This document shows positions 10,861-29,486 of a stretch of 64,000 nucleotides of DNA, piece by piece (the first letter of the stretch is position 1; each line of letters opens with the position of its first letter). The position numbers and the translations under genes were made by a program. The stretch comes from Candidatus Margulisiibacteriota bacterium (GTDB lineage Bacteria > Margulisbacteria > WOR-1 > JAHJIW01). The stretch covers positions 1-64,000 of the forward strand of contig JAHJIW010000015.1 in NCBI GenBank assembly GCA_018823125.1, in the 5' to 3' direction. The notes beneath the pieces were generated by a model that saw only the letters and a program-made list of their open reading frames with translations, did no database searches and was not told the DNA's origin.

Positions 10861-10864
10861 ATTC

Positions 10865-12207: not shown

Positions 12208-12219
12208 AGGAGAAAGTTT

Positions 12220-14283: not shown

Positions 14284-15320
14284 TGAAAAACTTAAAAGTT
14301 AAAACACAAAATTTAGTAAAACTACTGGACGCCCTAAAGGATGCATCAAATTTACTGGCTCCGCAAACTGATAAATACGGCGATACCTATTTTCAGCAAG
14401 TCGTAGATGCCAGTCAGGTGGTTTTAAAACACTTTAAACCGCTGATGCCGGCCGTCCGTGAAGTTTTATTTGGTCAACTTGAAGATATGATCACCTTCAA
14501 AGACACCGCCAGCGGGACCAAAATTAAACCGGTAAAAGCGGCCAAAGATACTATTCTTTTTGGTCTTCCAAATTGCGACTTAGACGGGATTCTCTATAAC
14601 GACGAATTCTTTGCGAAACGTGAGTTTGCCGATTTCTATTACGTCAACGCTCGCAAAAAACTAACCATCATTACCCTGGCCTGCCTCACTCCTCCCAATG
14701 AAAATTGCTTCTGCGCATCGATGGGACACGGTCCTTTTGCCGAAAAAGGTTTTGACCTGCAGCTAACTGACATGGGAGATGGTTTTTTCTTAGTTAATAT
14801 CGGCAGTAAAAAAGGACAAAAAATCGTTGACGATAACTCATCTCTTTTTGAAGCGGCCGGTGAGGCTGATCTTTCAAAATGGAAAGAATTAAAGCAGCAA
14901 GCTGAGGAATCAACTACAAAGAAAGATGTAAACAAAAAGAAAGCCCTCGATAATATGGGACGTACTCCGCTTAAAGAACAAATGATTATCGAAATCTCCG
15001 ATCGCTGTATCTCCTGCGGAGCTTGTAATTACACATGTCCAACCTGTACCTGCTTTAACGTTATTGATCACAAAAAAGATAAAGCCGGCACCCGCAAAAG
15101 AGTATTAGATTCTTGTATCTTAGGCGGATATTTTCGCATGGCCGGCGGACATAATCCCAAAGAAGCCAAAGAAGATCGCACCCGTAACCGTTATTTCTGC
15201 AAACTGCTCTGGGATAAAGAAAAATTAGGTGATTCCGGTTGCGTGGGTTGTGGTCGCTGTTTAGATGCGTGTCCAGTTAAGGTCGACATAAAAGATGTGA
15301 TTAAGCAACTAAGCAATTAG
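14283..15320 (+). CDS. Iron-sulfur beta subunit of the formate dehydrogenase (HydB/AsrA family)
   Basis: 345 residues. The C-terminal third has two [4Fe-4S] ferredoxin-type motifs: C242-x2-C245-x2-C248-x3-C252 and C320-x2-C323-x2-C326-x3-C330. The N-terminal part matches the beta subunit of group-3b sulfhydrogenases and AsrA, which carry electrons between the catalytic subunit and the flavin subunit. It overlaps fdhF by one base (TAATG), so it belongs to the formate dehydrogenase rather than to a sulfite reductase. A paralogue, 22132-23199, sits next to the hydrogenase. Confidence 0.86.
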   Translation: MKNLKVKTQNLVKLLDALKDASNLLAPQTDKYGDTYFQQVVDASQVVLKHFKPLMPAVREVLFGQLEDMITFKDTASGTKIKPVKAAKDTILFGLPNCDLDGILYNDEFFAKREFADFYYVNARKKLTIITLACLTPPNENCFCASMGHGPFAEKGFDLQLTDMGDGFFLVNIGSKKGQKIVDDNSSLFEAAGEADLSKWKELKQQAEESTTKKDVNKKKALDNMGRTPLKEQMIIEISDRCISCGACNYTCPTCTCFNVIDHKKDKAGTRKRVLDSCILGGYFRMAGGHNPKEAKEDRTRNRYFCKLLWDKEKLGDSGCVGCGRCLDACPVKVDIKDVIKQLSN

Positions 15321-15350
15321 GCAACTAAGTGGAAACACTTAATTGCTTAG
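15305..15350 (+). other. Intergenic hairpin with short direct repeats
   Basis: GCAACTAAG occurs at 15305-15313 and 15321-15329. CTAAGCAATTA (from 15309) can pair with TAATTGCTTAG (to 15350), and AAGTG/CACTT closes a GAAA loop (15332-15335), giving a bulged stem of about 16 bp. There is no T-run, so it is more likely a processing or stability element between beta and gamma than a terminator. Confidence 0.55.
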
Positions 15351-15392
15351 TCGCTATTCGCTCAGTCGCACTAAATTAAGGAGGATAAAAAA

Positions 15393-16259
15393 ATGAAAAG
15401 AGGAAAATATAAAGCCAGTACCAAGCCACAAAAAGGAGCCGCGAAGAACGAGTATCTTCCCCGTGCGGTTGAGATCACTAAAATCCGTGATCTTAGCTCA
15501 GATGTAAAACATTACACCTTAAAATTTAAGGACGGAAAGCCGTTTGAATATAAACCCGGACAATTTGTTCAGGTTTCTATTTTTGGTGTCGGAGAAGCTC
15601 CGATATCAATCACTTCTACGCACGAAAGAGGAGACGATCTAGAAATCGCCATTCGTCGGGTTGGTTCTTTAACTAACGCCATCCACACATTAAAAGAAGG
15701 CGACGAACTCTTTATTCGTGGCCCCTACGGAAATTCTTTCCCGTGGGAAGCAGGCAAGGGTAAAGATATTTTATTCATCGCCGGTGGAATTGGACTCCTC
15801 CCCTTACGCTCGGTAATGAATGCTGTTTTCCATCATCGTAAAGATTATGGAAAAATCTGGATTCTTTACGGCGCAAAATCTCCTCAAGAATGTGTTTACG
15901 CTGACGAGCTGGCTCGCTGGGGTAAATTAGACAATGTTGAAGTACTGCAAACCGTTGACTCTCCTACCGCCGAATGGAAAGGCGGCGTGGGTGTGGTAAC
16001 TACACTCTTTGAAAAGATTGAATTTGATCCGGAAAAAACTATTTCTTATCTTTGCGGACCGCCGATCATGATTAAATTCACCAACATCACTCTCGAAGAG
16101 AAAAAAATGCAGCCCGACAACATCATTACCACCATGGAAATGCACATGAAATGTGGTATTGGTAAATGCGGACACTGTTTAGTTGGACATAAATATTGTT
16201 GTACGGATGGACCCGTATTTACATTCGCCGAGTTAAAAGCTTTAGGCGCCGAAGAATAA
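15393..16259 (+). CDS. FAD/NAD(P)-binding gamma subunit of the formate dehydrogenase (HydG-gamma/AsrB/PyrK type)
   Basis: 288 residues of the ferredoxin-NADP reductase fold. A flavin-binding region has KPGQFVQVSIFGVGEAPISI; the nucleotide-binding region has GGIGLLPLRS and LCGPP. A C-terminal [2Fe-2S] motif lies in CGIGKCGHCLVGHKYC. This subunit would transfer electrons to or from NAD(P). It resembles the hydrogenase gamma subunit (23196-24032) along its whole length, so the two catalytic units share duplicated diaphorase modules. It has a strong AAGGAGG site. Confidence 0.88.
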   Translation: MKRGKYKASTKPQKGAAKNEYLPRAVEITKIRDLSSDVKHYTLKFKDGKPFEYKPGQFVQVSIFGVGEAPISITSTHERGDDLEIAIRRVGSLTNAIHTLKEGDELFIRGPYGNSFPWEAGKGKDILFIAGGIGLLPLRSVMNAVFHHRKDYGKIWILYGAKSPQECVYADELARWGKLDNVEVLQTVDSPTAEWKGGVGVVTTLFEKIEFDPEKTISYLCGPPIMIKFTNITLEEKKMQPDNIITTMEMHMKCGIGKCGHCLVGHKYCCTDGPVFTFAELKALGAEE

Positions 16260-16270
16260 TTTAATATCTG

Positions 16271-16363
16271 TCTCCGATCCATTATTCCTAAAACTTAGGT
16301 CACGGAAAATGGACGATAGGGTCTGGTTGGAAACGACCTCGCCTCCCGTAATTGGAAAGGAGT
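16271..16363 (+). ncRNA. Moco/Tuco riboswitch upstream of tupABC
   Basis: The leader contains CTCCGATCC near the start, a CCTAA-AAC-TTAGG stem (16287-16299), GTCACGGAAAATGGACGA (16299-16316), GGTC pairing with GACC, and AAACGACCTCGCCTCCCG (16331-16348). I recognise these as conserved blocks of the molybdenum-cofactor riboswitch. CTCC at 16272-16275 can pair with GGAG at 16359-16362, which is the Shine-Dalgarno of tupA, so ligand binding should hide the site and switch translation off. A control over tungstate import suggests the tungsten-cofactor form. Confidence 0.82.
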
Positions 16364-16367
16364 AATC

Positions 16368-17168
16368 ATGAAAAAGGTTTTCTTTTTAGTATTATTATGT
16401 TGTTTAATCGTTAACCCCGTTTTTGGTACAGATGTAATCAAGTTAGCTACCACCACTTCCACCGATAATTCAGGGCTACTGAAAGCACTGTTCCCCGCTT
16501 TCGAGAAAAAATATGATGTACGCGTCGATGTGATTGCCGTGGGCACCGGAAAGGCCATAAAACTTGGAGAAAACGGCGATGTAGATGTAATCCTGGTTCA
16601 CGCGAGAGACGCGGAAGATAAATTTGTTGCCGACGGATTTGGAGTTAACCGCCGCGATGTCATGTTTAATGATTTTGTAATCCTGGGGCCTAAAAATGAT
16701 CCAGCTAAAGTTAAATCCGCAAAAAATGCCGCCGACGCCCTTAAAAAGATTGCCTCCAGTCAATTTACTTTTATTTCCCGCGGCGATGATTCCGGCACCG
16801 ACAAAAAAGAAAAAGCTCTCTGGAAAGCCGCCGGTATCGCTCCGGCCGGAAAATGGTACAACGCCGTCGGACAAGGAATGGGCGCAACCCTCCAAATTGC
16901 AAACGAAAAACAGGGATATACGCTGGCCGACCGGGGAACTTATCTTGCTTATTTAAACAAAATTGACTTAGCGGTTGTTTTTGAAGGAGATCAAGCTATG
17001 TTCAACCCCTACGGAGTAATCGCAGTCAATCCTGCACTTTACCCTGATTCAAACTATCTGGGAGCCATGCAGTTGATCGGATGGGTAACTTCGGTGCCTG
17101 GCCAAAAAATTATTAAGGATTTTCAAATTAATGGGAAACCGCTCTTTATACCATCAGCGGTAAAATAA
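16368..17168 (+). CDS. tupA: Tungstate ABC transporter substrate-binding protein TupA
   Basis: 266 residues. A signal peptide (MKKVFFLVLLCCLIVNPVFG) sends it to the periplasm. The oxyanion-binding motif TTTSTDNSGLL near residue 27 is the TupA signature and distinguishes it from ModA. Later conserved parts include FISRGDDSGTDKKE and YTLADRGTYL. It delivers tungstate, with very high affinity in known members, to TupBC. The gene follows the riboswitch, whose 3' strand holds the ribosome-binding site AAAGGAG. Confidence 0.92.
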   Translation: MKKVFFLVLLCCLIVNPVFGTDVIKLATTTSTDNSGLLKALFPAFEKKYDVRVDVIAVGTGKAIKLGENGDVDVILVHARDAEDKFVADGFGVNRRDVMFNDFVILGPKNDPAKVKSAKNAADALKKIASSQFTFISRGDDSGTDKKEKALWKAAGIAPAGKWYNAVGQGMGATLQIANEKQGYTLADRGTYLAYLNKIDLAVVFEGDQAMFNPYGVIAVNPALYPDSNYLGAMQLIGWVTSVPGQKIIKDFQINGKPLFIPSAVK

Positions 17169-17169
17169 T

Positions 17170-17868
17170 ATGAACTATATCGGCCAATCGGTAACTAAAG
17201 CGTTTGAATTGATTCTGGGTTTTGATCCGGACATCTACTTTATTGTCTGGACCTCGGTCAGAATCGCTGCCACTTCTGCGTTTTTGGCTACCTTGGCCGG
17301 TGTTCCCTTAGGATTATTGCTGGCCTTGAAAAAATTTAAAGGAAAAAGAGTGGTTTCCGCAATCTTAAATACGCTGATGGCCGTGCCCACCGTAGTAATC
17401 GGCATTTTGGTTTATTCATTTTTAACCCACCAAGCCCCGCTCGGTTCGATGGGACTGCTTTTTACTCCCACGGCAATCGTGATTGGTCAATTTTTCCTGG
17501 CCTTCCCGATTGTGGCCGCAATGGTTTTCTCAGTTGCTCAAGGAAAAGATAAAAAAATATTAAAAACTGCCTACGGTCTCGGAGCAACTCCCTTCGGCGC
17601 CATCAAATCTTTTATTTGGGAGATAAAAATCCCGCTGCTCGCCGCAATCATGGCCGGATTTGGCCGGGTGATCGGAGAAGTGGGGGTGGCCATGATGCTG
17701 GGCGGAAATATTTACCGCTACACACGAACCATGACTACCGCCATTGCACTTGAAACCTCAAAAGGTGAATTTGCATTAGGGTTAGCGCTAGGTTTTATTC
17801 TTTTGATAGTAGCTTTGGGAGTAAACTCAACCGTTTCGTATATAAATTATAGAAGTGAAAAAGCATGA
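17170..17868 (+). CDS. tupB: Tungstate ABC transporter permease TupB
   Basis: 232 residues with about five membrane helices and the ABC permease EAA-type loop (AYGLGATPFGAIKSFIWEIKI region, then GFGRVIGEVGVAMMLGGN). It follows tupA by one base and overlaps tupC by ATGA, so the three are coupled. It forms the membrane channel of the importer, as a homodimer. Confidence 0.92.
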   Translation: MNYIGQSVTKAFELILGFDPDIYFIVWTSVRIAATSAFLATLAGVPLGLLLALKKFKGKRVVSAILNTLMAVPTVVIGILVYSFLTHQAPLGSMGLLFTPTAIVIGQFFLAFPIVAAMVFSVAQGKDKKILKTAYGLGATPFGAIKSFIWEIKIPLLAAIMAGFGRVIGEVGVAMMLGGNIYRYTRTMTTAIALETSKGEFALGLALGFILLIVALGVNSTVSYINYRSEKA

Positions 17869-18836
17869 GTGTATATAAACTAGAAAAAATTAAAAGAAGC
17901 TATGACAATAACGATATTTTAGACAACGTTAACCTTACCTTTGAAGATGGAAAAATCTATTGTTTGGTTGGAGAAATCGGCTGCGGCAAAACTACCCTGC
18001 TCAATACGCTGGCATTCCTGGATGCTCCCCAAGGCGGCAATTTATTCTTTAACAATCTCCCCTCTCGCCGCAAAAATATTAGTTATTGCATGCAGCAGCC
18101 CTTTTTATTTAAAACTACGGTCTTTAACAACATTGCTTACGGCTTAAAAGCTCGCAGGGAAAATAAGGTAAACGAAAAAGTTAATAATATCAGCCGTCTT
18201 TTTGGGATTGATCCCCTACTCGATCAAAAAGTAAGCCGCTTATCCGGCGGCCAAACGCAAAAAGTCGCCCTGGCGCGAACCTTTATCCTGGACACGCCGG
18301 TTTTACTGCTCGATGAACCAACGGCCAATCTGGATGAAGCCAGTATCCAACTGCTTGAAGGTGCGCTTTCTCAGTCCAGAAAAAAAGGAAACACCATTAT
18401 TTTCGCAACCCATCAACTGGATATTGCTTATCGCCTCGCCGATGAAGTGATAACCATCCATGACCGGCAGGTTTTTCCGCAGTCGTACCAAAATTTCTTT
18501 GCAGGAGAAATTATCAGCTCAAACGGATTAAAATCTTTTAAAATCAATGATCAGATCGCATTTATTCTAGCCATCGATAAAGAAGGCCAAGCAAAAGCTT
18601 CCATCGATCCCAAGGAAATCATTATTTCAAAAGAAAAGTTTACTTCCAGCGCACGCAATTCACTTCCCGGAAAAGTAATTAGTATTATTGATGAAGGAAA
18701 AATAGTTAAACTCACTGCAGATTGTGGAATTAAACTGGTCAGCCAAATTACCCATAAATCGTTAGATGAATTAGGGATTAACGTCGGACAAAATGTCTTT
18801 TTAACGTTCAAAACTTCTTCTATAAAGGTGTATTAA
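17865..18836 (+). CDS. tupC: Tungstate ABC transporter ATP-binding protein TupC
   Basis: 323 residues. The N-terminal ATPase has Walker A GEIGCGKTT, signature LSGGQTQK, Walker B VLLLDEPTANLD and switch His in FATHQLD. Residues from about 210 form a C-terminal extension; its last ~65 residues (NSLPGKVISIIDEGKIVKLT) look like a Mop/TOBE oxyanion-binding domain, which could sense tungstate and inhibit transport. It overlaps moeA by one base. Confidence 0.9.
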   Translation: MSVYKLEKIKRSYDNNDILDNVNLTFEDGKIYCLVGEIGCGKTTLLNTLAFLDAPQGGNLFFNNLPSRRKNISYCMQQPFLFKTTVFNNIAYGLKARRENKVNEKVNNISRLFGIDPLLDQKVSRLSGGQTQKVALARTFILDTPVLLLDEPTANLDEASIQLLEGALSQSRKKGNTIIFATHQLDIAYRLADEVITIHDRQVFPQSYQNFFAGEIISSNGLKSFKINDQIAFILAIDKEGQAKASIDPKEIIISKEKFTSSARNSLPGKVISIIDEGKIVKLTADCGIKLVSQITHKSLDELGINVGQNVFLTFKTSSIKVY

Positions 18837-20008
18837 TGATTAAATCCAAAGATGCATTAAAAATAATATTAAATAATTCAAAACCGCTCGGAACGGAAGC
18901 AATCGCACTGACGGCTGCCCTGGGGCGCGTACTAGCTGAAAATATTTATTCAGACGTAAATATTCCTCCTTTTAATCGCTCGGCAATGGATGGATTTGCC
19001 ATAAATTTTAAAGATAAATCCAAAATATTTACGGTTATTGAAGATATTCCGGCCGGAAAAGTTCCAGAAAAAACTATAAGTTCCGGCAAATGTGCCCGGA
19101 TTATGACCGGCGCCATGCTTCCGCAAGGCGCAGACAAGGTTGTAATGGTAGAAAACACAAAACAAATTTCGCATAATAAAATGCAAATCGTGAAGGCCGA
19201 AAAGAAATCAAATGTTTCTCTGCAGGGCGAAGATGTAAAAAAAGGAGAACTAATATTAAAAAAAGGAACCAAAATTCGCGCCCAAGAAGCCGCCATGCTG
19301 GCTTCCGTAGGTAAACCAACCGTAAAAGTTTTGCGTCAGCCCAAAGTGGCCATTATTTCCACCGGATCCGAATTGGCCGAACCATCTCAAACCCCAAAAC
19401 CCGGTCAAATCCGAAACAGCAACAGTTCGATGCTGCTGGTTCAGCTAAAAAGGCTGGGGATCGAAGGAATCTATCTTGGAATCGCAAAAGATAACTTTAC
19501 TGCTACAAAACAATTAGTTTCAAAAGGCCTGGCACAGGCCGATATCCTGATTTTATCCGGGGGAGTTTCGGTTGGAGATTATGATTTTGTACGCGAAGTA
19601 TTAGAAGCCTGCGGCGTAAAGATTTTATTCAATAAAGTGGCCATCAAACCCGGCAAACCAACCGTTTTCGGGAAATATGGAGATAAAACCGTGTTCGGAC
19701 TGCCCGGCAATCCGGTTTCGGTGCTGATTATTTTCGATCTTTTTGTAGTTCCGGCTATCGATAAAATAGTGGGAAGGATTACCAAATCAAAACTTACCAG
19801 TCTGCGTCTCCTAAAAAACTTTCAGCGCAGAAATGCTAACCGGGAACAATATTTTCCAATTCAAATCACCAAAAGCGGCGCCCGCCCCCTTAAGTTTCAC
19901 GGCTCCGCACATATGCAGGCTTTAACCCAAGCGGATGGAATCATGCACATCGCTAAAGGGATAAAAAATTTAAAAAAAGGAACTTTAGTTAATGTTAGAC
20001 CCATATAA
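18836..20008 (+). CDS. moeA: Molybdopterin molybdenumtransferase MoeA
   Basis: 390 residues, normal length. Conserved motifs are FNRSAMDGFA near residue 45, the MGATLP-like region MTGAMLPQGADKVV, ISTGSEL, and LSGGVSVGDYDFV, followed by GLPGNPVSV. MoeA inserts molybdate (or tungstate) into adenylylated molybdopterin, releasing AMP. Located directly after the tungstate transporter, it may preferentially handle tungsten. The start overlaps tupC by TAATG. Confidence 0.93.
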   Translation: MIKSKDALKIILNNSKPLGTEAIALTAALGRVLAENIYSDVNIPPFNRSAMDGFAINFKDKSKIFTVIEDIPAGKVPEKTISSGKCARIMTGAMLPQGADKVVMVENTKQISHNKMQIVKAEKKSNVSLQGEDVKKGELILKKGTKIRAQEAAMLASVGKPTVKVLRQPKVAIISTGSELAEPSQTPKPGQIRNSNSSMLLVQLKRLGIEGIYLGIAKDNFTATKQLVSKGLAQADILILSGGVSVGDYDFVREVLEACGVKILFNKVAIKPGKPTVFGKYGDKTVFGLPGNPVSVLIIFDLFVVPAIDKIVGRITKSKLTSLRLLKNFQRRNANREQYFPIQITKSGARPLKFHGSAHMQALTQADGIMHIAKGIKNLKKGTLVNVRPI

Positions 20009-20792
20009 TCGCGATATTTATTATTTGCGCATTTCGGTTACCGATCGCTGTAATCTGCGCTGCACCTATTGCATGCCGGAGGAAGGTGTTACGCTGAAAT
20101 CTCACCACGATATTTTAAGCTATGAAGAAATCGAAGAAATTGTCAGAGTTGCAGTTAAATTAGGTTTTTATAAATTCCGTTTAACCGGCGGTGAACCACT
20201 AATTCGCAAAGGCATTTTAGATTTAGTTAGAACTTTAGCTAATATCGAAGGAATAGAAACACTGGCCATGACCACGAATGGACTTTTACTCCCAAAATAT
20301 GCAACAGAACTTAAAGCTGTGGGGCTTTCACGCCTAAACATCAGTCTTGATTCGCTTCGGGCGGATAGATATCGCCAAATTAGTCGCGGAGGAGATTTAA
20401 CCCTAGCGCTGGCCGGAATTCAAGCCGCACGCGAAGCCGGTTTTGAAAAAACCAAACTGAACGCAGTACTGGTAGATGGCTTTAACGACGACGAAAAAGA
20501 AAATCTTAAAAAATTTGCGGCAGAAAATAATATGCAGGCCCGTTTCATTAAGAAAATGGACTTAAAAAGCGGCGATTATTACCAAGTTGAAGGCGGCGCA
20601 GGCGGTAATTGTTCGATCTGCAACCGTATTCGTCTTACCGCCGACGGAAAAATGAGATCCTGTCTTTTTTCTGACTGTGAATTTGATATACGAAAAGAAG
20701 GCATCGAGGAAGCTTTCCGAAAAGCCATCGGCAACAAACCCCAAAAGGGACACAAATCTTTAAAAAGGGAGATGATTCAAATTGGCGGATAA
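19992..20792 (+). CDS. moaA: GTP 3',8-cyclase MoaA, compact form
   Basis: 266 residues against the usual ~325-340. The radical SAM site is CNLRCTYC (C-x3-C-x2-C, about residues 21-28); the C-terminal GTP-binding cluster is CSICNRIRLTADGKMRSC, and the chain ends in the required Gly-Gly. Around residue 190 about 50-60 residues are missing between RFIKKMDL and GGNCSICNR, where other MoaA proteins have the segment following RFIE-x-MP. Both clusters are intact, so I expect an active, shortened enzyme. It makes 3',8-cyclo-GTP in the first step of molybdopterin synthesis and overlaps moeA by 17 bp. Confidence 0.92.
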   Translation: MLDPYNRDIYYLRISVTDRCNLRCTYCMPEEGVTLKSHHDILSYEEIEEIVRVAVKLGFYKFRLTGGEPLIRKGILDLVRTLANIEGIETLAMTTNGLLLPKYATELKAVGLSRLNISLDSLRADRYRQISRGGDLTLALAGIQAAREAGFEKTKLNAVLVDGFNDDEKENLKKFAAENNMQARFIKKMDLKSGDYYQVEGGAGGNCSICNRIRLTADGKMRSCLFSDCEFDIRKEGIEEAFRKAIGNKPQKGHKSLKREMIQIGG

Positions 20793-21237
20793 ATTTAGTC
20801 ATATAAACAACGAAGGAAAAGCTCAAATGGTGGATGTGGGAAGCAAGCCAGACGTCAAACGCATTGCGATTGCCAAGGGAAATATAGCGCTGGCCCCGGA
20901 AACAATTAAGCTTATCCGGGAAAATCAAATCAAAAAGGGAGACGTAATCTCGGTTGCTAAAATTGCCGGGATTCAGGCAGCTAAAAAGACCCATGAACTC
21001 ATTCCGCTCTGCCACCCGCTGGCTTTGACCAATATTGATCTCTCGTTTGATATCAAAGAGAATAAAGTGGAGATCGAGTCCAAGGTTGAATGCATCGGCA
21101 AAACCGGAGTTGAGATGGAAGCGCTGACTGCGGTGTCGGCAGCAGCCCTAACCATTTATGACATGTGTAAAGCAGTCGATAAAAACATGAAAATTGGAGA
21201 TATTTACCTATGCCAAAAATCCAAGCAGTCTGTATAA
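20782..21237 (+). CDS. moaC: Cyclic pyranopterin monophosphate synthase MoaC
   Basis: 151 residues. Conserved motifs are MVDVGSKPDVKR at the N-terminus, AAKKTHELIPLCHPL, and GVEMEALTAVSAAALTIYDMCK with the catalytic Lys nearby. It converts 3',8-cyclo-GTP to cyclic pyranopterin monophosphate. I place the start at a TTG that overlaps the moaA stop by 11 bp, with GGGAGATGATT upstream. The MoaD/MoaE molybdopterin synthase needed for the next step is not in the window. Confidence 0.93.
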   Translation: MADKFSHINNEGKAQMVDVGSKPDVKRIAIAKGNIALAPETIKLIRENQIKKGDVISVAKIAGIQAAKKTHELIPLCHPLALTNIDLSFDIKENKVEIESKVECIGKTGVEMEALTAVSAAALTIYDMCKAVDKNMKIGDIYLCQKSKQSV

Positions 21238-21638
21238 ATAAATCCAAGGGCAGAAAATTCGCTGACTCCGAGATTAACTTAATTGCAGATCTTGGAGTTG
21301 AAGGCGACTTTCACGCAAAGGGCGGAGAACGACAAGTAAGCTTGTTGGCACACGAAAGTATTGAAAAAATGCGAGCCAAGGGACTTAACCTTGACGACGG
21401 AGCTTTCGGTGAAAATATCGTAACCGAAGGAATTGAATTAGTCGCACTTAAAATCGGCCAAAAATTAAAAATCGGCGAGGCAGAAGTGGAAGTAACCAAA
21501 ATCGGCAAAGAATGTGTCGAGCGCTGCGCAATATTTTACCAAACCGGCGACTGTATCATGCCGCGGGAAGGTATTTTTGGCAAAGTTTTGGTCGGCGGCA
21601 AAGTAAAAGCCAAAGATGCTTTGGAGGTTTTACCATGA
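21210..21638 (+). CDS. MOSC-domain protein (molybdenum cofactor related)
   Basis: 142 residues consisting of one MOSC domain: GVEGDFHAKGGERQVSLLA and DGAFGENIVTEGIEL are typical, and cysteines occur in GKECVERCAIFYQTGDC. MOSC domains bind sulfurated or metallated pterins, or move sulfur to the cofactor. It lies between moaC and mogA, with 28-bp and 4-bp overlaps, which fits a cofactor-maturation role. Confidence 0.85.
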   Translation: MPKIQAVCINKSKGRKFADSEINLIADLGVEGDFHAKGGERQVSLLAHESIEKMRAKGLNLDDGAFGENIVTEGIELVALKIGQKLKIGEAEVEVTKIGKECVERCAIFYQTGDCIMPREGIFGKVLVGGKVKAKDALEVLP

Positions 21639-22117
21639 AAGTAGGAATTATTACGGTTTCAGATAAAGGTTCTAAAGGAGAAAGAGAAGATTTAAGTGGA
21701 AAAGCTATCCGTGAAATTGTAAAAGCTGAATCTTATGGATATATTGTCGTTCCGGATGAAATGGATAAAATATCTAACGCCTTAATCGAATTTATTGATA
21801 AAAAAGGCTGTGATTTAGTTATTACTACCGGCGGAACCGGTTTATCTCCCCGAGATGTCACTCCCGAAGCCACTAAAAATGTAATTGATCGAGAAATTCC
21901 GGGACTAGCCGAAGCGATGCGCATGGAATCTTATAAAATCAAAAAAACCGCCCTGCTCTCCCGAGCCGTTTGCGGCAGCCGCGGTAAAAGTTTAGTAGTA
22001 AATCTTCCCGGCAGTCCTAAGGCAGTTAAAGAGTGCTTGGCAATCATTTCACCGGTCATTTCGCACGCTTTAGAGGTCCTAGAAAAAGGTAGTGTAGAGT
22101 GTGGAAAAATAGTATAA
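21635..22117 (+). CDS. mogA: Molybdopterin adenylyltransferase MogA/MoaB family
   Basis: 160 residues. Motifs are GIITVSDKGSKGEREDLSG at the N-terminus, TTGGTGLSPRDVTPEAT and NLPGSPKAV. It adenylylates molybdopterin, giving the substrate of MoeA. I chose the ATG at 21635, which overlaps the MOSC gene stop (ATGA) and gives the normal N-terminus; an upstream in-frame start adds 41 unrelated residues. Confidence 0.92.
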   Translation: MKVGIITVSDKGSKGEREDLSGKAIREIVKAESYGYIVVPDEMDKISNALIEFIDKKGCDLVITTGGTGLSPRDVTPEATKNVIDREIPGLAEAMRMESYKIKKTALLSRAVCGSRGKSLVVNLPGSPKAVKECLAIISPVISHALEVLEKGSVECGKIV

Positions 22118-22131
22118 AATAAGAGATAAAT

Positions 22132-23199
22132 ATGCAATACGCCGTACTTAAAAAAGAGTATTTAAACGAATTTATTACTAGGTTAGCCCAGGATCAAAAA
22201 GTAATTGCTCCGGTTGCTAAAGGCTATAATCAGTTTGCTTTTGAAGAAGTAAAATCCGGAGAAAAAGTAGCCCTGGATCACATTCCCACCATCCTGCCTC
22301 CCAAGAAATATTTTATGCCACAATATGAAACGCTGGCCACCTATCACGCCAATAGCAGCCAAAAAATGAATCCCGTGGTGGAATGCGAAGACCTGATTCT
22401 CTTTGGAGTACATACCTGCGATTTAGCCGGCATTCAGTGTTTAAACATGGTCTTTTCAGAGCGGCCCAAAGACATCAATTATTTAATCCGCAAAAGCAAA
22501 ATTACCATCATTGGATACGGCTGCAACGATTATTGCGATGAATATGCCAGCTGCCGTTTAGTGCACAGCCATACCCCCAACGGCGGCTATGATCTTTTTT
22601 TTATTAATCTTGGCGATAAATTCTTCGTGCACATCAATACCCTGGCCGGCGATGAAATAACTGAAAAAACTAATCTTTTTGAACCCGCTACCCCAGCGGA
22701 TCTTAATGCTTTAGCTAAAATCAGAGAAAAGAAAAGAGAAATTTTTGCAAATGAAGTTCCGGTAGTGCACGAAAGAATGCCTGAAATGTTTAGTAAAAGT
22801 TATGACAGCAACGTGTGGGAAGATTTAGGTAAACGCTGTCTGGCTTGCGGAAACTGTACCAATGTTTGTCCCACCTGTTATTGTTTTGACGTCACGGATG
22901 AACCCAATCTTGATTTACAAACCGGGAAACGCTTCCGCCGCTGGGATTCCTGTCAGAATGAAGCCTTTGCAAAAGTTGCCGGCGGAGAAAGCTTTCGCAA
23001 AGAAAGAAGCGCGCGCCAGCGCCATCGCTACTTTCGAAAATTTAAATATCCCATGGAAAAATTTTCCAGGCTCTTTTGCACCGGCTGCGGCCGCTGCAGC
23101 CGCACCTGCATGGCCAAAATCAACCTAAAAGAAACCTTAAACCAATTAGTCGAGGAACAAGGCATGAAAAATCTCAAAGCCGGCAGAGAAACCGAATGA
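22132..23199 (+). CDS. hydB: [NiFe] hydrogenase beta subunit (iron-sulfur, HydB family)
   Basis: 355 residues. Two [4Fe-4S] motifs lie in the C-terminal part: RCLACGNCTNVCPTCYC and FCTGCGRCSRTCMAKI. The central region resembles the group-3b (sulf)hydrogenase beta subunit and AsrA. It should carry electrons between the hydrogenase small subunit and the flavin subunit encoded next, with which it overlaps by ATGA. It is a paralogue of 14283-15320 but only distantly similar outside the cluster region. Confidence 0.88.
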   Translation: MQYAVLKKEYLNEFITRLAQDQKVIAPVAKGYNQFAFEEVKSGEKVALDHIPTILPPKKYFMPQYETLATYHANSSQKMNPVVECEDLILFGVHTCDLAGIQCLNMVFSERPKDINYLIRKSKITIIGYGCNDYCDEYASCRLVHSHTPNGGYDLFFINLGDKFFVHINTLAGDEITEKTNLFEPATPADLNALAKIREKKREIFANEVPVVHERMPEMFSKSYDSNVWEDLGKRCLACGNCTNVCPTCYCFDVTDEPNLDLQTGKRFRRWDSCQNEAFAKVAGGESFRKERSARQRHRYFRKFKYPMEKFSRLFCTGCGRCSRTCMAKINLKETLNQLVEEQGMKNLKAGRETE

Positions 23200-24032
23200 A
23201 AAAACTAACGCTTAAAGATTCAGAATATGAAATAAAAAAAGGCAAAATCCTCCGCGTAAGAAAGATGACGGCAATCGAAACGTTTTTCGAAATTGCGTTG
23301 CCCGGAGGAGAAAGCCTTGACCATGAACCCGGGCAATTTGTCGAAGTTTCATTATTTGGCGTCGGTGAAGCCCCCATTTCGGTTACTTCCTCTCCCACCA
23401 AAAGAGGCTCTTTTGAATTAGCAGTTAGAAACGTTGGAAAAGTTACCGGAGCACTGCACAAACTAAAAGAAGGCGACGAAGTCGGCATCCGGGGCCCCTT
23501 TGGCAAAGGCTTTCCGGTCAGAATATTTGAAGGAAATGATCTACTCTGTGTTGCGGGGGGACTGGGCATTGTTCCTTTGCGTTCTCTGATTAACTACGTA
23601 ATCGATAACCGCCGCGACTTTGGTAAAGTTGAAATTTTGTTGGGTTGTAAAACCCCCAAAGACATGCTTTTTAACGAAGAAGTTGATGAATGGAATAAAC
23701 GTCTGGACGTTAAGTTAAACTGTACCGTCGATAAAGCCGATCCGGATTGGAAAGGCAATGTCGGCCTGATTACCTCCCTCATTCCAGGAATCAACCTTAA
23801 GCCCGAACGTACCTTTGCCGTGGTAGTCGGCCCACCCATTATGTATAAGTTTGTGATTAAGGAATTATTAAAAAAAGAAATTCCCGAGCGCCATATTTTA
23901 GTTTCACTTGAGCGACACATGAAATGCGGTTTAGGAAAATGCGGCCACTGTCAGATCAATAATTTTTATTGCTGCCAGGACGGTCCCGTATTTTCTTACG
24001 ATAAAATTAAAAATATTCCAGAGGCTCTATAA
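23196..24032 (+). CDS. [NiFe] hydrogenase gamma subunit (FAD/NAD(P)-binding diaphorase)
   Basis: 278 residues of the ferredoxin-NADP reductase fold, with EPGQFVEVSLFGVGEAPISV (flavin), GGLGIVPLRSL and VGPP (nucleotide) and a C-terminal [2Fe-2S] motif CGLGKCGHCQINNFYCC. This is the family often called HydG in sulfhydrogenases, unrelated to the radical SAM HydG at 28113. I chose the ATG at 23196 because it overlaps the beta stop and gives the family N-terminus. It is the probable NAD(P)H site. Confidence 0.9.
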   Translation: MKKLTLKDSEYEIKKGKILRVRKMTAIETFFEIALPGGESLDHEPGQFVEVSLFGVGEAPISVTSSPTKRGSFELAVRNVGKVTGALHKLKEGDEVGIRGPFGKGFPVRIFEGNDLLCVAGGLGIVPLRSLINYVIDNRRDFGKVEILLGCKTPKDMLFNEEVDEWNKRLDVKLNCTVDKADPDWKGNVGLITSLIPGINLKPERTFAVVVGPPIMYKFVIKELLKKEIPERHILVSLERHMKCGLGKCGHCQINNFYCCQDGPVFSYDKIKNIPEAL

Positions 24033-24034
24033 TT

Positions 24035-24796
24035 ATGTCAAAACCAAAAGTTGCATTTTTTGATTTTGCCTGCTGTGAAGGCTGCCAATTACAGGTTGCT
24101 AATATGGGCGAATCATTACTCGACGTGTTGGGTGCGATCGATGTCGTAGAATTCCGCGAGGTCATGTCCGAAAAATGGGATCAAGACTTTGACGTGGCCA
24201 TTGTTGAAGGAAGCATTACCACTCCCCACGCCATCGAAAAAATAAAGAAAATCAGAGAACGCTGTAAAGTTTTAATCGCCTACGGTTCCTGTGCTACCAT
24301 CGGCGGCGTCAACGGCATGAAAAATAACTTCCCGCTCGACAAAATCCGTGAAGAAGTTTACGGAAAAGATTATAAATACTTTGAAACGGTTGAAACCCGC
24401 GCGGTGCCCCAGGTTGTAAAAGTTGATTATCTGGTGCACGGCTGCCCGGTCTATATCCCGGAATTCGTGAACGTACTTAAAGCGGTGCTGGCCGGCCTGC
24501 CCTATCAGGTTCCGGATCATGCGGTCTGCGTTGAATGTAAACTTAACGAAAACGTTTGCGTGTACGAAAAAGGCGTTACCTGCCTGGGGCCCGTCACCAA
24601 AGCCGGTTGTAATTCATGGTGTATCAATAACGGCAATATCTGCTACGGCTGCCGGGGCATGGTTACCAATCCAAACGAAAACGGCGCCAAAGACGTAATC
24701 GAAAAATATAATGTTCCGATGAATTTAGTCAGGAACAAAATGAACATGTATAACCAATGCAGGGAGATTGATCAAAGTGAGCAAAAGAAACGTTAG
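24035..24796 (+). CDS. hydD: [NiFe] hydrogenase small (delta) subunit, group 3-like
   Basis: 253 residues. The proximal cluster ligands are C14, C17 (CCEGCQ), C86 (GSCATIGG) and C137 (HGCPVY). Further cysteines at 165-206 (CVECKLNENVC, CLGP, CNSWC, CYGC) provide medial and distal clusters. No Tat signal is present, so the enzyme is cytoplasmic, as in group 3. It passes electrons from the NiFe site to the beta subunit. It overlaps the large subunit by 20 bp. Confidence 0.92.
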   Translation: MSKPKVAFFDFACCEGCQLQVANMGESLLDVLGAIDVVEFREVMSEKWDQDFDVAIVEGSITTPHAIEKIKKIRERCKVLIAYGSCATIGGVNGMKNNFPLDKIREEVYGKDYKYFETVETRAVPQVVKVDYLVHGCPVYIPEFVNVLKAVLAGLPYQVPDHAVCVECKLNENVCVYEKGVTCLGPVTKAGCNSWCINNGNICYGCRGMVTNPNENGAKDVIEKYNVPMNLVRNKMNMYNQCREIDQSEQKKR

Positions 24797-26105
24797 TATC
24801 AATGTCGAATATCTAACCCGGGTCGAAGGTCACGGCAACATCGTGGTCGACGTTAAAAATAATAAGCTGGAAACCTGCCAGCTTCAAATCGTAGAAGCTC
24901 CCCGCTTTTTTGAAGGAATGCTGCAGGGAAGATCCATTTTCGAAGCCCAACATATTACCTGCCGTATCTGCGGAATTTGCTCCTGCGGACATACCTTAGC
25001 TTCGATCCAGGCCGCCGAAGACGCCATCGGCTTTATTCCTTCTGAACAAACTACCAAATTAAGAAAATTCCTCCTGCACATGGAAAATCTGGACAGTCAT
25101 ATTCTACATATCTATTTATTAGTGGCACCCGATTTACTGGGCGTCAAAAGCTTTGTGCCGCTGATCAACACTCATAATGATATAGTGCGCCGCGCACTAA
25201 GAATGAAAAAAACCTGCAATGACGTTTGCGACATATTAGTTGGCCGACACGTGCATCCCATTTCCAGTATCGTCGGTGGTTTCACCAAACTACCCAGAGA
25301 AAAAGACATCGATGCCATGCATAAACTACTCCATCATCTACGCAAAGATATGGAGGCCACCGTTGAACTGGCTGCCAAGTTTAAATTTCCTGAGTTTGAA
25401 CGCGATACCGAATACGTTGGTTTAGTAAGCGATAATGATGAATATCCAATGTTAACCGGCGAGGTGGGCTCAACCGACGGCGTTCGCAAAAATAAAAAGG
25501 AATATAAATCTATCACTAATGAATTTATTGTTCCCCATTCTTCCGCGAAGTTCGCTAAACTAAGCCGCGCATCCTACGCGGTCGGAGCGCTGGCCCGCTT
25601 TAATTTAAATTCTAAAAAGCTGCATCCCAAAGCCAAGGCAGTAGCTAAAGCGGTTGGCTTAAAACCTAAATGTACCAATCCCTATCTCAACACCGTTGCC
25701 CAGCTGGTTGAATGTGTACATTCGCTAGAAGACGGCCTTGAAATTTTAGAAGATCTGAAGAAAACCGGTATCAATTACGACGAAGAAATTATTGTCGGGT
25801 TAAACGAAAAAGGAACCATCCCGGTCAAAGCCGGTAACGGTGTCGGCGCAGTCGAAGTACCACGCGGTATCCTGTTCCATAATTATGAAGTTGATGACCA
25901 AGGTATTATCACCAAAGCTAACTGCATCATCCCCACCAATCAAAATGTGAATAACATTGAACACGACATGAAAAAGCTGGTTCCGGAAATATTAAAAAAA
26001 TCAGATGAAGAAATTACGCTGGACCTAGAAATGCTCGTCCGGGCTTATGACCCTTGTATTTCCTGTTCTGCGCACTTTTTGGATGTGAAGTTTGTTAACC
26101 GCTGA
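24777..26105 (+). CDS. hydA: [NiFe] hydrogenase large (alpha) catalytic subunit, group 3b-like
   Basis: 442 residues. The L1 ligands are in CRICGICSCGHT (C65 and C68 bind Ni), and the L2 ligands are C427 and C430 in DPCISCSAH. After His433 there is a 9-residue tail that the endopeptidase encoded next should cut off once the metal centre is complete. RVEGHG at the N-terminus is conserved. The order beta-gamma-delta-alpha is that of bidirectional NADP-linked group-3b hydrogenases. The start is a GTG ten bases after AGGGAG; a TTG at 24768 is too close to that site. Confidence 0.93.
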   Translation: MSKRNVSINVEYLTRVEGHGNIVVDVKNNKLETCQLQIVEAPRFFEGMLQGRSIFEAQHITCRICGICSCGHTLASIQAAEDAIGFIPSEQTTKLRKFLLHMENLDSHILHIYLLVAPDLLGVKSFVPLINTHNDIVRRALRMKKTCNDVCDILVGRHVHPISSIVGGFTKLPREKDIDAMHKLLHHLRKDMEATVELAAKFKFPEFERDTEYVGLVSDNDEYPMLTGEVGSTDGVRKNKKEYKSITNEFIVPHSSAKFAKLSRASYAVGALARFNLNSKKLHPKAKAVAKAVGLKPKCTNPYLNTVAQLVECVHSLEDGLEILEDLKKTGINYDEEIIVGLNEKGTIPVKAGNGVGAVEVPRGILFHNYEVDDQGIITKANCIIPTNQNVNNIEHDMKKLVPEILKKSDEEITLDLEMLVRAYDPCISCSAHFLDVKFVNR

Positions 26106-26565
26106 AGCAAAAAAGTTACTGACAACTGACCATCCCGGCACTACCCTAATTATAACGATTGGCAACAACTTAAGATCAGATGACGGGGTCGGCCCTTTCA
26201 TTGCCCAAAACTCCAGTAAATTAAAAACTGGACTAGTACTTTTAAACGCCGGCGAAAAACCAGAAAACATAATTGATGAGGCCGTCGAAAAAAAACCATC
26301 CCGGGTAATTATTATTGATGCCGCTAATTTTGGCGGCACGGTCGGCGAAGTTAAAGTAATTGATAGCGAACATATTCCTAATACAACGCTTAGTACTCAT
26401 ACTTTTCCGTTAAAAGTGATCGCAAAACTATTAGAAACTGATTGTCAGGCTCCGGTTCATTTTTTAGGGATCCAGCCGCAAAGTGTAGAGTTGGGAGAAA
26501 ACCTGTCGGCTGAGGTCAAAGCGGCCGCTAATGAAATTATTAATCTAATTGGTGGAGGAAAATAA
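26092..26565 (+). CDS. hycI: Hydrogenase maturation endopeptidase (HycI/HyaD family)
   Basis: 157 residues. GNNLRSDDGVGP near the N-terminus is the family motif with the nickel-binding Asp, and IIIDAANFGG and STHTFPLKV supply the second Asp/His region. The protease trims the large subunit C-terminal peptide after Ni insertion. It starts inside the large subunit gene (TTG, 14-bp overlap), so the pair is coupled. Confidence 0.88.
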   Translation: MLTAEAKKLLTTDHPGTTLIITIGNNLRSDDGVGPFIAQNSSKLKTGLVLLNAGEKPENIIDEAVEKKPSRVIIIDAANFGGTVGEVKVIDSEHIPNTTLSTHTFPLKVIAKLLETDCQAPVHFLGIQPQSVELGENLSAEVKAAANEIINLIGGGK

Positions 26566-26566
26566 A

Positions 26567-26809
26567 ATGCATGAGATGCATCTATTAAAAGACTTATTAT
26601 CCGATATCTTAAACGCCGCTAAAGATAATAACGCTAAAAAAGTCACTAAGGTTTATTTACGAATGGGCACTTTCACCGAAATCAACCCGGAAATTCTTTT
26701 ACACTTTTTTGCCGCCCACGCTAAAGGCACGGTGGCCGAAGGCGCCGAGGTTTTAATTGAGTCTAGTCCAACGCGGGAGCTAAGGCTATTATCTTTTGAT
26801 TGTGAGTAA
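26567..26809 (+). CDS. hypA: HypA nickel chaperone lacking the zinc-finger domain
   Basis: 80 residues against the usual ~113. The N-terminal nickel site is intact (Met1-His2-Glu3) and the body matches HypA (VYLRMGTFTEINPEILLHFF, GAEVLIE). The zinc finger, normally two CxxC motifs about residues 70-95, is absent: the chain runs from VLIESSP directly to RELRLLSFDCE, which is the usual C-terminal strand. There is one cysteine in all. This looks like a clean internal deletion, not a frameshift, since both flanks align. Start chosen at the ATG after GGAGGAAAA. HypA delivers Ni to the large subunit together with HypB, which is not in the window. Confidence 0.88.
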   Translation: MHEMHLLKDLLSDILNAAKDNNAKKVTKVYLRMGTFTEINPEILLHFFAAHAKGTVAEGAEVLIESSPTRELRLLSFDCE

Positions 26810-26812
26810 ATT

Positions 26813-28120
26813 ATGTGTTACGCCATCCCCGGTAAAGTTATTGATATAAATAATAAAATCGTCACGGTGGAATACTTTGGAGAACAAAAAAAAGCCATCA
26901 ACGAGATTGATGATCTTAAAGTTGGCGATTATATTTATGCCCAGGGCGGCTACGTCATAAAAAATATCCCCGAAGCAGAAGCCCAATCCATTTTAACTAC
27001 CTGGAAAGAAACTTTTTTTGAACTGCAAGAGCTGGATCTGCGATTATCCCGCCTGGATTTAGAAAAAAAAGGCATCGATAAAAAGCTGGCACTGATTTTA
27101 GACAGGGCTGCCGAAGATCTACCGCTTAAAGAAGCCGACCTACTCCATCTTTTAAATCTGGAAGATGATAAACAAATTGAATTACTATTTAAAGTTGCCA
27201 ATTTCCTGCGTCAAAAACATTTAGGCAACTCTTGTTGCGTACACGGCATCATCGAATTTTCCAATTATTGCTCTCAAGGCTGTCTCTATTGTGGAATTTC
27301 TAATCACAATAAGGCTCTCCCCCGCTACCGCATGACTAAAAAAGAAATTATTGAGACCGCTTACGAAGCAATCGAAAAAGATGGGTTTAAAGCTCTGGTT
27401 TTGCAAAGCGGTGAAGATCCAGAGTATTCAATCGACGACCTAAGTGATATCGTAAAAGAAATCAAAAAGCGCTCGGCGGTGCTAATCTTTATTAGTTTTG
27501 GCGAAGTAGGCCTGGATGGCCTCAAAAAGCTTTACCAAGCGGGCGCCAGAGGCCTTCTGATGCGTTTTGAGACTAGCAATAAAGCGCTCTATGATAAATT
27601 ACACCCAGGCAAAACGTTAGAGAACCGCCTACAACACCTAGAAGAAGCCTTCAAAATGGGATATCTAATCATTACCGGCGGATTAATTGGCCTACCCGGT
27701 CAAGCTAAAACCGATATCTTAAATGATATCCTTTTGACCAAACGATTAAACACCGAGATGTACACTTTTGGTCCTTTTCTTCCCCACCCCCATACTCCGT
27801 TAGCAAAAGTTAAACCTCCGGCCGTAAAAGATGTACTAAAAACTTTAGCGGTGGCGCGTATCGCCGGCGGAAAAGATGCAAAAATTGTAGTAACTACCGG
27901 ATTTGAAACTTTATACGCAGGCGCCCGGGAAGAGGGATTAATTGCCGGGGCCAATTCGGTAATGTTAAACGTAACTCCCAAAAAATATAGTGAAAATTAT
28001 TCAATTTATCCCGGCCGGGCACACGCCGGTGAGGGAATCCAAGAACAAATTGATACGACGCTTAAAGTTTTAAGGGATTTGGGAAGAGCCCCCACCGATT
28101 TAGGAATCACGCATGATTAA
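26813..28120 (+). CDS. HypC-HydE fusion protein
   Basis: 435 residues. Residues 1-75 are a complete HypC: MCYAIPGKV with the essential Cys2, then YFGEQKKA, LKVGDYIYAQGGYVIKNI. After a short linker, residues ~90-435 match HydE of [FeFe]-hydrogenase maturation: radical SAM C153-x3-C157-x2-C160 (EFSNYCSQGCLYCG), LQSGEDP, RFETSN, GGLIGLPGQ, FGPFLPHPHTPLA and a YPG region at the end. The optional second HydE cluster is absent. HypC carries the Fe(CN)2CO group to [NiFe] enzymes; HydE modifies the Fe(CO)2CN-cysteine product of HydG. No frameshift or internal start separates the two parts. It lies 3 bp after hypA. Confidence 0.9.
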   Translation: MCYAIPGKVIDINNKIVTVEYFGEQKKAINEIDDLKVGDYIYAQGGYVIKNIPEAEAQSILTTWKETFFELQELDLRLSRLDLEKKGIDKKLALILDRAAEDLPLKEADLLHLLNLEDDKQIELLFKVANFLRQKHLGNSCCVHGIIEFSNYCSQGCLYCGISNHNKALPRYRMTKKEIIETAYEAIEKDGFKALVLQSGEDPEYSIDDLSDIVKEIKKRSAVLIFISFGEVGLDGLKKLYQAGARGLLMRFETSNKALYDKLHPGKTLENRLQHLEEAFKMGYLIITGGLIGLPGQAKTDILNDILLTKRLNTEMYTFGPFLPHPHTPLAKVKPPAVKDVLKTLAVARIAGGKDAKIVVTTGFETLYAGAREEGLIAGANSVMLNVTPKKYSENYSIYPGRAHAGEGIQEQIDTTLKVLRDLGRAPTDLGITHD

Positions 28121-29486
28121 TGAACAAAGAATTACTGAACTACTTGAAAAATGTAAACCAGATAAGGTTCGCATCAAAGATATTGTTCAAAAATCAATCG
28201 AAAAGCGCCGTCTTTCGTTAGAAGAAACCGCCGCTTTACTAAACGTAAAGGATGAAGCTACACTTAAAGAACTTTTTTCCGCCGCCAACACAGTCAAAGA
28301 AGAAATTTACGGCAATCGCTTGGTAATTTTCGCTCCGCTCTACGTTTCTAACCTTTGCCAAAACGAATGTCTATACTGTGCTTTCCGGCAAAGCAATAAA
28401 GACATCAAACGCGCCGTTCTTTCGCAGGAAGAAATCAAAAAAGAAACCGAATCCATCTTAAAAACCGGTCAAAAACGAATTTTACTGGTGGCCGGCGAAA
28501 CTTATCCCAAAGAAGGACTGCAATATATCTATGATTCTATTAAAACAGTTTATTCTGCCCGCGACGGAGTCAATAATATCCGCCGCCTCAACGTTAATCT
28601 GGCCCCACTTTCCACCGTCGAGTTCAAAAACCTCAAAAAAACCGGAATTGGCACTTATCAACTCTTTCAAGAAACTTATCACCTGGAAACTTACAAAAAT
28701 ATGCATCCGGCCGGACCAAAATCCGATTATCTTAACCGCTTAAGTGCCATCGATCGCGCTTTTGAAGCCGGAATTGATGATGTCGGCATCGGCGCACTCT
28801 TTGGACTTTATGATTTTCGTTTTGAAATTTTAGCTCTCATGATGCACATCGAATATCTCGAAAAGAAATTTGGGATGGGACCCCATACCATATCTGTTCC
28901 GCGTCTCGAGCCGGCCACTAATTCGGCGGTTGCCAAAAATCCGCCTTTCCCGGTTTCTGATCTGGAATTTCAGCAAATCATTGCGGTTTTACGACTAAGC
29001 GTTCCTTATACCGGCATCATCTTAAGTACCCGCGAAAATGCCGCGATGCGCCGCGCAGCCCTCTCTTTAGGAGTATCTCAGATCAGTGCCGGCAGCCGCA
29101 CCAATCCTGGGGGTTATGCTGAAGGACGTAATGAACACGATGGACAATTTTCTTTAGGAGACCACCGATCCTTAGATGAAGTAATCCATGATATCTGCCA
29201 ACAAGGGCATATCCCCTCTTTTTGCACCAGCTGCTATCGTTTAGGCCGCACCGGGCTAGATTTTATGGAGCTGGCCAAACCTGGACAAATAAAAAACAAG
29301 TGCTTACCCAATGCACTTTTAACTTTTAAAGAATATTTAGTGGATTATGCTTCTCCCAAGGTTAAAGAGATTGGAGAAAAACTGATTCAAAAGGAGATCA
29401 ATGCCATCCCCCAAGCAAAAACCAAAGAATTTACCAAGGAAAGTCTGGTCAAAATCGCGAACGGCAAGCGCGACATTTACTGTTGA
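28113..29486 (+). CDS. hydG: HydG radical SAM tyrosine lyase (CO/CN-forming maturase)
   Basis: 457 residues, normal length. The radical SAM site is C82-x3-C86-x2-C89 (CQNECLYC). The C-terminal C371-x2-C374-x22-C397 motif, which holds the second cluster and its extra 'dangler' iron, is complete, so this is HydG and not ThiH. HydG cleaves tyrosine into p-cresol, CO and cyanide and builds an Fe(CO)2CN-cysteine unit. It overlaps the HypC-HydE gene by 8 bp. No HydF and no [FeFe] hydrogenase is present in the window, so its product may serve the [NiFe] enzyme here or a [FeFe] enzyme elsewhere. Confidence 0.93.
   Translation: MINEQRITELLEKCKPDKVRIKDIVQKSIEKRRLSLEETAALLNVKDEATLKELFSAANTVKEEIYGNRLVIFAPLYVSNLCQNECLYCAFRQSNKDIKRAVLSQEEIKKETESILKTGQKRILLVAGETYPKEGLQYIYDSIKTVYSARDGVNNIRRLNVNLAPLSTVEFKNLKKTGIGTYQLFQETYHLETYKNMHPAGPKSDYLNRLSAIDRAFEAGIDDVGIGALFGLYDFRFEILALMMHIEYLEKKFGMGPHTISVPRLEPATNSAVAKNPPFPVSDLEFQQIIAVLRLSVPYTGIILSTRENAAMRRAALSLGVSQISAGSRTNPGGYAEGRNEHDGQFSLGDHRSLDEVIHDICQQGHIPSFCTSCYRLGRTGLDFMELAKPGQIKNKCLPNALLTFKEYLVDYASPKVKEIGEKLIQKEINAIPQAKTKEFTKESLVKIANGKRDIYC

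Follow-up and report, generated by a model that had tools for sequence, protein, structure and literature searches.

Introduction

In the classical pathway of [NiFe] hydrogenase maturation HypD acts as the scaffold and HypE and HypF supply cyanide, and HypX, which works under oxygen and requires HypCDEF, provides CO from formyl-tetrahydrofolate. The Fe(CN)2CO unit is carried by HypCD through HypC Cys2 and HypD Cys41 (PMC11565642), and HybG, a chaperone of the HypC family, is identified as an Fe(CN)2CO carrier in another report (PMC8692609). The abstract of a 2025 review describes six Hyp proteins as necessary, and the review lists the oxygen-free source of the [NiFe] CO ligand, and the enzyme behind it, among the unanswered questions (PMC12134894). 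For [FeFe] hydrogenases, two turnovers of tyrosine on HydG yield [Fe(Cys)(CN)(CO)2], which is handed directly to HydE and is reduced and adenosylated there (PMC12752695). Here we analyse a 64,000-nucleotide stretch of DNA (the window; positions 1 to 64,000 of contig JAHJIW010000015.1) from a Candidatus Margulisiibacteriota bacterium, in which HypC and HydE are joined in one protein, encoded in a [NiFe] hydrogenase operon beside hydG. We find it very probable that this fusion and HydG together build the iron half of the [NiFe] site by another route, in place of HypC, HypD, HypE and HypF, a route on which numerous uncultured anaerobes appear to rely.

The open-access literature, to which our search was confined (subscription papers and preprints lay outside it), yielded no report of a HypC–HydE fusion or of a HydG-dependent [NiFe] pathway, in keeping with an earlier note on this DNA, made from the sequence alone, which knew of no description of the fusion. 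A 2019 paper on the hydrogenases of these lineages mentions neither maturation nor HypC, HydE or HydG.

Results and discussion

A single reading frame joins HypC to HydE

Positions 26813–28120 on the forward strand form one stop-free open reading frame (ORF) of 435 residues, and Pfam and NCBIfam matches confirm it as the uninterrupted union of HypC with a HydE-like radical S-adenosylmethionine (SAM) domain that the earlier note had described. The HypC domain (residues 1–75; 26813–27037, forward strand) has the family's N-terminal MC with the essential Cys2 and is matched by Pfam HupF_HypC (PF01455) over residues 1–64 (48.0 bits, cut-off 28.5) and by TIGR00074 over residues 1–75 (45.1 bits, cut-off 48). 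The HydE-type domain (residues 97–417; 27101–28063, forward strand) contains the Pfam Radical_SAM match (residues 147–304), the CxxxCxxC motif (C153/C157/C160) and a C141-C142-x-H144 segment, and its best profile over residues 97–417 is HydE TIGR03956 (237 bits, E 3e-70, curated cut-off 254.6). The window protein lies slightly under both NCBIfam cut-offs, both of which are passed by a related fusion (locus L150; 278 and 49.2 bits for HydE and HypC respectively), and fusions at loci L152, L145, L140 and L125 also exceed that for HydE. Cys2, C153, C157 and C160, the cysteines singled out in the earlier note, are unchanged in 74/74 members of the fusion family.

The fusion was also modelled with AlphaFold2, with 74 family members as input, giving a mean predicted local distance difference test (pLDDT) score of 92.8 and a predicted template modelling (pTM) score of 0.91. 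The C-terminal part of the model has the HydE fold, with target TM-scores of 0.91–0.96 to Thermotoga maritima HydE structures, and among the closest matches are 7o1o and 8qmk, which hold the bound HydG product. A helix (residues 54–79) and a short connector join HypC to HydE.

Other radical SAM identities (PylB, BioB or ThiH) were rejected, being at least 81 bits weaker than HydE; PylB, at 156 bits, was the runner-up, 81 bits below TIGR03956. HmdB of the [Fe]-hydrogenase system (HcgA–G/HmdB), likewise a radical SAM protein in the synthesis of an Fe–CO cofactor, gave a far weaker match than HydE (78 versus 237 bits) and serves a different cofactor.

The fusion is intact in many genomes

We searched for relatives in 74 genomes of the phylum (Margulisbacteria/Saganbacteria/WOR-1, assigned from the names of near relatives) and found the full-length fusion in 23 of them, at 46–100% identity. 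We then scanned 84,980 species genomes and obtained 159 loci that encode a relative, the best 80 of which were fetched; these come partly from the same 23 genomes, and the 73 fusion genomes considered below comprise those 23 and 50 from other phyla. HypC and HydE share one ORF in all 80 fetched loci, whose hosts include Omnitrophota, Brevinematales, Elusimicrobia, Candidatus Scalindua and other Planctomycetes, Auribacterota, an Ozemobacteraceae bin, a Nitrospirae bin and some bins of DPANN archaea.

The frameshift or assembly error that the earlier note had allowed for, and a chance fusion, are ruled out by the intact copies in 23 genomes of the phylum and in the 80 loci. Split HypC and HydE genes in relatives are ruled out too, the in-frame stops flagged in homologues from the phylum being confined to the C-terminal end.

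In a tree, a single branch with 100% support in the Shimodaira–Hasegawa-like approximate likelihood ratio test (SH-aLRT) separates the HydE domains of fusions from standalone HydE proteins, several of whose genes adjoin that of HydF. At one locus (L152:10001–12829), beside a [NiFe] operon, HypC, HydE and HydG lie in a single 943-residue ORF; because the HypC-HydE–HydG junction bears a 39-base inverted repeat, this ORF may be an accidental joining of two neighbouring genes.

HypD, HypE and HypF are missing from most fusion genomes searched

HypD was not found in any of the 23 fusion genomes of the phylum, nor in 48 of the 50 from other phyla (71/73 overall), and HypF gave the same counts (23/23 and 48/50; 71/73). 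HypE, searched for in the 23, was not found in any of them, and no HypD, HypE or HypF lies within 10 kb of the fusion at any of the 80 loci. Since these three are missing, the hybrid probably stands in for the entire machinery that assembles Fe(CN)2CO. The two exceptions, which have both HypD and HypF, seem to run two maturation systems: in one genome (G106), hypA, a lone hypC, hypD and hypF sit together with a group-1-like large subunit on a separate contig, and in the other (G100) hypF accompanies a group-1-like large subunit.

Most of these genomes are drafts, which leaves some room for classical HypD, HypE and HypF that were overlooked through incompleteness or divergence. The chance of this is nonetheless close to nil, as the absence holds for G063, a single contig that is 98% complete, and for G066, G069, G070 and G073 (96–100% complete), besides the overall figure of 71/73. 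Moreover, the same HypD profile search was positive in Escherichia coli, in three other control genomes and in all six genomes of the phylum that have a [NiFe] hydrogenase, no fusion and a completeness of at least 82% (G030–G035; Fisher p = 1.2e-5). A further genome with [NiFe] hydrogenase and no fusion (G057, 69% complete) is also without HypD. Control runs of the profiles on E. coli and other known genomes gave the expected results.

The [FeFe] side of the hybrid has few partners in these genomes. [FeFe] hydrogenase was not found in 22 of the 23 fusion genomes of the phylum or in 31 of the other 50 (53/73 together, G063 included), and HydF, searched for in the 23, was found in one (G010). 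Thus hydF, [FeFe] hydA, hypD, hypE and hypF, all of which the earlier note had wished to see looked for, are absent from most of the fusion genomes searched, and the pattern that would have tied the fusion mainly to [FeFe] hydrogenase and HydF, apart from [NiFe] genes, was not what these genomes showed.

Linkage to [NiFe] hydrogenase and HydG

In the window the fusion lies in a run of genes of one direction, all on the forward strand. It comprises a hydrogenase iron–sulphur beta subunit (22132–23199; NF040829, 238 bits), a gamma subunit binding flavin adenine dinucleotide and NAD(P) (23196–24032; NF040835, 233 bits), the [NiFe] small (delta) subunit (24035–24796; NF040836/NF040831, 162 bits), a group-3b-like [NiFe] large subunit of the sulfhydrogenase alpha type, identified from profiles and motifs (24768–26105), a hycI-type large-subunit endopeptidase (26092–26565; TIGR00142, 128 bits versus 119), a short hypA (26567–26809; 80 residues), the fusion and hydG (28113–29486; 457 residues), which overlaps the stop of the fusion by 8 bases. 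This bears out the placement in a [NiFe] operon with hydG adjoining that had been read from the sequence. HydG, a tyrosine lyase, scores well above the TIGR03955 cut-off (537 bits versus 312), aligns over its full length to 4wcx and retains the C-terminal CxxC...C motif of the auxiliary cluster.

The association extends to the other fusion genomes. Searches detected a [NiFe] large subunit in 23/23 genomes of the phylum and 47/50 others, or about 46/50 and about 69/73 in all when a match without active-site cysteines (G103) is set aside, and HydG above cut-off in 70/73. No farther than 10 kb from the fusion lie a [NiFe] large subunit at 51 of the 80 loci (36 group-3b-like, 14 group-4-like and 1 group-1-like), HydG at 41, the endopeptidase at 39 and a HypA match at 30. 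Directly beside the fusion, only Rex, HypA and hydrogenase subunits recur as families. A group-1-like large subunit shares its operon with the fusion and HydG (locus L099; G092:C1:59500–67500), and because that genome is without HypD, enzymes of the group-1-like type may be matured by this route as well.

These data bear on a role of the fusion and HydG in maturing an [FeFe] hydrogenase, their place in [NiFe] operons being fortuitous. By definition HydE and HydG mature [FeFe] hydrogenases, and 20/73 fusion genomes do have such an enzyme; we nevertheless regard such a role as highly improbable, given the 53 genomes without that enzyme, the lack of HydF in 22 of 23, the [NiFe] large subunit near 51 of 80 fusions and the separate, fully supported grouping of standalone HydEs. 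A HydG family specific to fusions was ruled out: in the tree, HydGs do not separate by fusion or [FeFe] context, and one genome (G083) combines the fusion, an [FeFe] hydrogenase and one HydG above cut-off. Both observations fit one shared HydG product.

The window HypA is matched by PF01155 over residues 1–69 only and has no zinc ribbon. Short forms of this kind (about 80 residues, the zinc ribbon excised and the last strand retained) occur in about 27 of the 80 loci, and the HypA-like proteins of group-4-like loci mostly have the ribbon. A gene directly downstream of the fusion in 18/80 loci resembles that of the redox-sensing repressor Rex, as judged by reading the sequence.

Residue patterns of the fusion and of the large subunits

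Canonical HypC has a conserved histidine (E. coli 51, Thermococcus kodakarensis 44) at the HypD interface, and its mutation weakens HypD binding and maturation (PMC9002611). In alignment to T. kodakarensis HypC (2z1c), this residue is Gln44 in 74/74 fusions (codon 26942–26944 in the window), and the histidine is retained in the canonical, HypD-partnered HypCs of the same phylum. The loss of HypD and that of its contact residue on HypC go together.

In the HydE domain, the equivalents of T. maritima C63/C67/C70, Q107, S136, R159, E161, R180, M224, T268, M291, Y303 and Y306 are invariant. In contrast to T. maritima HydE, the fusion has an N-terminal HypC, and H52 and R54 are replaced by Cys142 and His144 in 74/74 fusions, the arginine being kept by standalone HydE proteins; Cys141 is present in 72/74 and Glu365 in 74/74. 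The strand with Cys142 and His144 leads into the cluster loop. On the same face of this barrel strand, the Cys142 thiolate and His144 imidazole are plausible iron ligands, which would take the place of HypD Cys41.

Such ligands would also suit a HydE domain acting in HypD's place as a mere binding pocket or scaffold, with HydG giving finished ligands and SAM serving as a release switch instead of in radical chemistry. HydE does bind the HydG product, 7o1o and 8qmk, in which it is bound, are among the structures closest to the model, and the invariant Cys142 and His144 resemble metal ligands. A pure scaffold would, however, have no need of CxxxCxxC and the HydE catalytic residues, which are invariant in 74/74, and we consider it unlikely.

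The [NiFe] large subunits speak to the product. Both nickel- and iron-binding CxxC motifs, together with the cyanide-holding arginine (PRG) and threonine or serine (PT/PS), are retained in 50 large subunits of fusion loci, with group-1-, 3b- and 4-like enzymes among them, and in that of G063; the window subunit has RICGIC and DPCISC motifs, a C-terminal extension and the PRG and PT motifs. Because the four cysteines and the cyanide-binding motifs are kept, these enzymes probably receive the normal Fe(CN)2CO group. A different iron centre in these enzymes, for example Fe(CO)2CN, would follow from feeding in the HydG synthon, which has just that composition (PMC12752695), but the retention of the cyanide-holding residues in all three groups makes it very unlikely.

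Proposed route

What is observed directly, namely the fusion with its linked genes, the missing HypD, HypE and HypF and the residue patterns, strongly implies a pathway, for which we infer the following chemistry. HydG would split tyrosine to an Fe–CO–CN–cysteine unit, as in the [FeFe] pathway, and pass it straight into the HydE domain of the fusion, by analogy with the known HydG-to-HydE transfer. SAM radical chemistry there would release the iron from its cysteine, and one CO would be exchanged for a second cyanide from further HydG turnovers to give Fe(CN)2CO; two turnovers would yield two CO and two CN, enough for this unit. The iron would be held by Cys142 and His144 of the HydE barrel together with HypC Cys2, in place of the HypC Cys2/HypD Cys41 pair, and then be taken over by Cys2, the HypC domain docking on the apo large subunit for delivery. 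HypA would then insert nickel and the endopeptidase remove the C-terminal tail.

We hold it likely that all CO and CN of these [NiFe] sites come from tyrosine via HydG, that the HypC-tethered HydE turns Fe(CO)2CN into Fe(CN)2CO, and that this is a third, undescribed cofactor route, present in many phyla of bacteria and perhaps in archaea, which links the [FeFe] and [NiFe] pathways. The earlier suggestion that the HydE domain processes the HydG product and hands the iron to the attached HypC is thus supported by the genomic tests, its chemical steps standing as conjecture, and the suggestion that it provides the CO source fell short: with HypD, HypE and HypF missing, the hybrid probably supplies CO and CN alike.

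One could instead have HydG and the fusion deliver CO only, with cyanide from another enzyme unrelated to HypE and HypF. The cofactor has two cyanides and the HydG product one (PMC12752695), which such a division of labour would accommodate. We think it quite unlikely, as HydG makes both CO and CN from tyrosine in amounts that two turnovers would render sufficient, HypE and HypF are absent, and the families recurring beside the fusion offer no other candidate than Rex, HypA and hydrogenase subunits.

Several points weigh against the full tyrosine-to-Fe(CN)2CO route. The HydG product carries two CO and one CN, and the loss of CO and gain of CN are conjectural. The data are genomic, and nearly all of the genomes are metagenome-assembled; some taxon labels may reflect binning errors, since the operon of a 'Falkowbacteria' locus (L078) is practically identical to that of a WOR-1 locus (L079). 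The genome-wide HypE and HydF searches covered the 23 genomes of the phylum. In a fair share of the loci, the fetched region does not include HydG or the hydrogenase, and three genomes of other phyla have no [NiFe] large subunit and G103 one without active-site cysteines; the bins concerned may be incomplete.

The route shares with HypABCDEF a HypC with Cys2, HypA, the endopeptidase and the C-terminal extension of group-3b-like large subunits, and differs in lacking HypD, HypE and HypF, in using HydG, and in a HypC that is joined to a radical SAM domain and has glutamine for the HypD-contact histidine. With HydE–HydF–HydG it shares a true HydG and a HydE that retains its fold and catalytic residues, whereas most fusion genomes have neither HydF nor [FeFe] hydrogenase and the linkage is to [NiFe] genes. 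It thus fails the defining features of Hyp (HypD, HypE, HypF) and of HydEFG (HydF, an [FeFe] target), yet uses parts of both. Like HypX it would be a dedicated additional CO supply, but drawn from tyrosine by an oxygen-sensitive radical enzyme and with HypDEF gone; the CO source of organisms with the classical Hyp set, such as E. coli, is left unexplained by it.

To our knowledge HydG is the one enzyme that makes both CO and CN. In widespread [NiFe] organisms without HypD, HypE and HypF, it stands beside its partner HydE, which is itself tied to the [NiFe] iron chaperone, and the question of an oxygen-free CO source becomes testable with a labelled amino acid. From this arrangement it seems that the [FeFe] and [NiFe] cofactor pathways can partly stand in for one another, a point of relevance to how they evolved; the small set of HypC–HydE, HydG, HypA and endopeptidase could serve as a maturation kit for [NiFe] hydrogenase production in other hosts, and surveys that score [NiFe] function by hypD–F will misjudge these lineages.

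Other genes of the window

By reading translations, positions 10015–29486 form a long co-directional run resembling a formate–hydrogen module. Its first part encodes a formate channel-like protein, mobA, fdhD, a formate dehydrogenase with its own beta and gamma subunits, similar to those of the hydrogenase, and a tungstate-type ATP-binding cassette (ABC) transporter, and its later part moeA, moaA, moaC, a MOSC protein and mogA, followed by the hydrogenase and maturation genes. MoaA (19992–20792) has 266 residues, below the usual length, with both cysteine motifs present. Upstream of the run, a gene at 9231–9848, named by reading the sequence and not from a profile, would encode a Rex-like redox-sensing repressor. 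At 348–3169, an IS3-type transposase fragment overlaps a B12-binding/radical SAM gene at its end, and the product of the latter has a directly repeated peptide in its C-terminal end.
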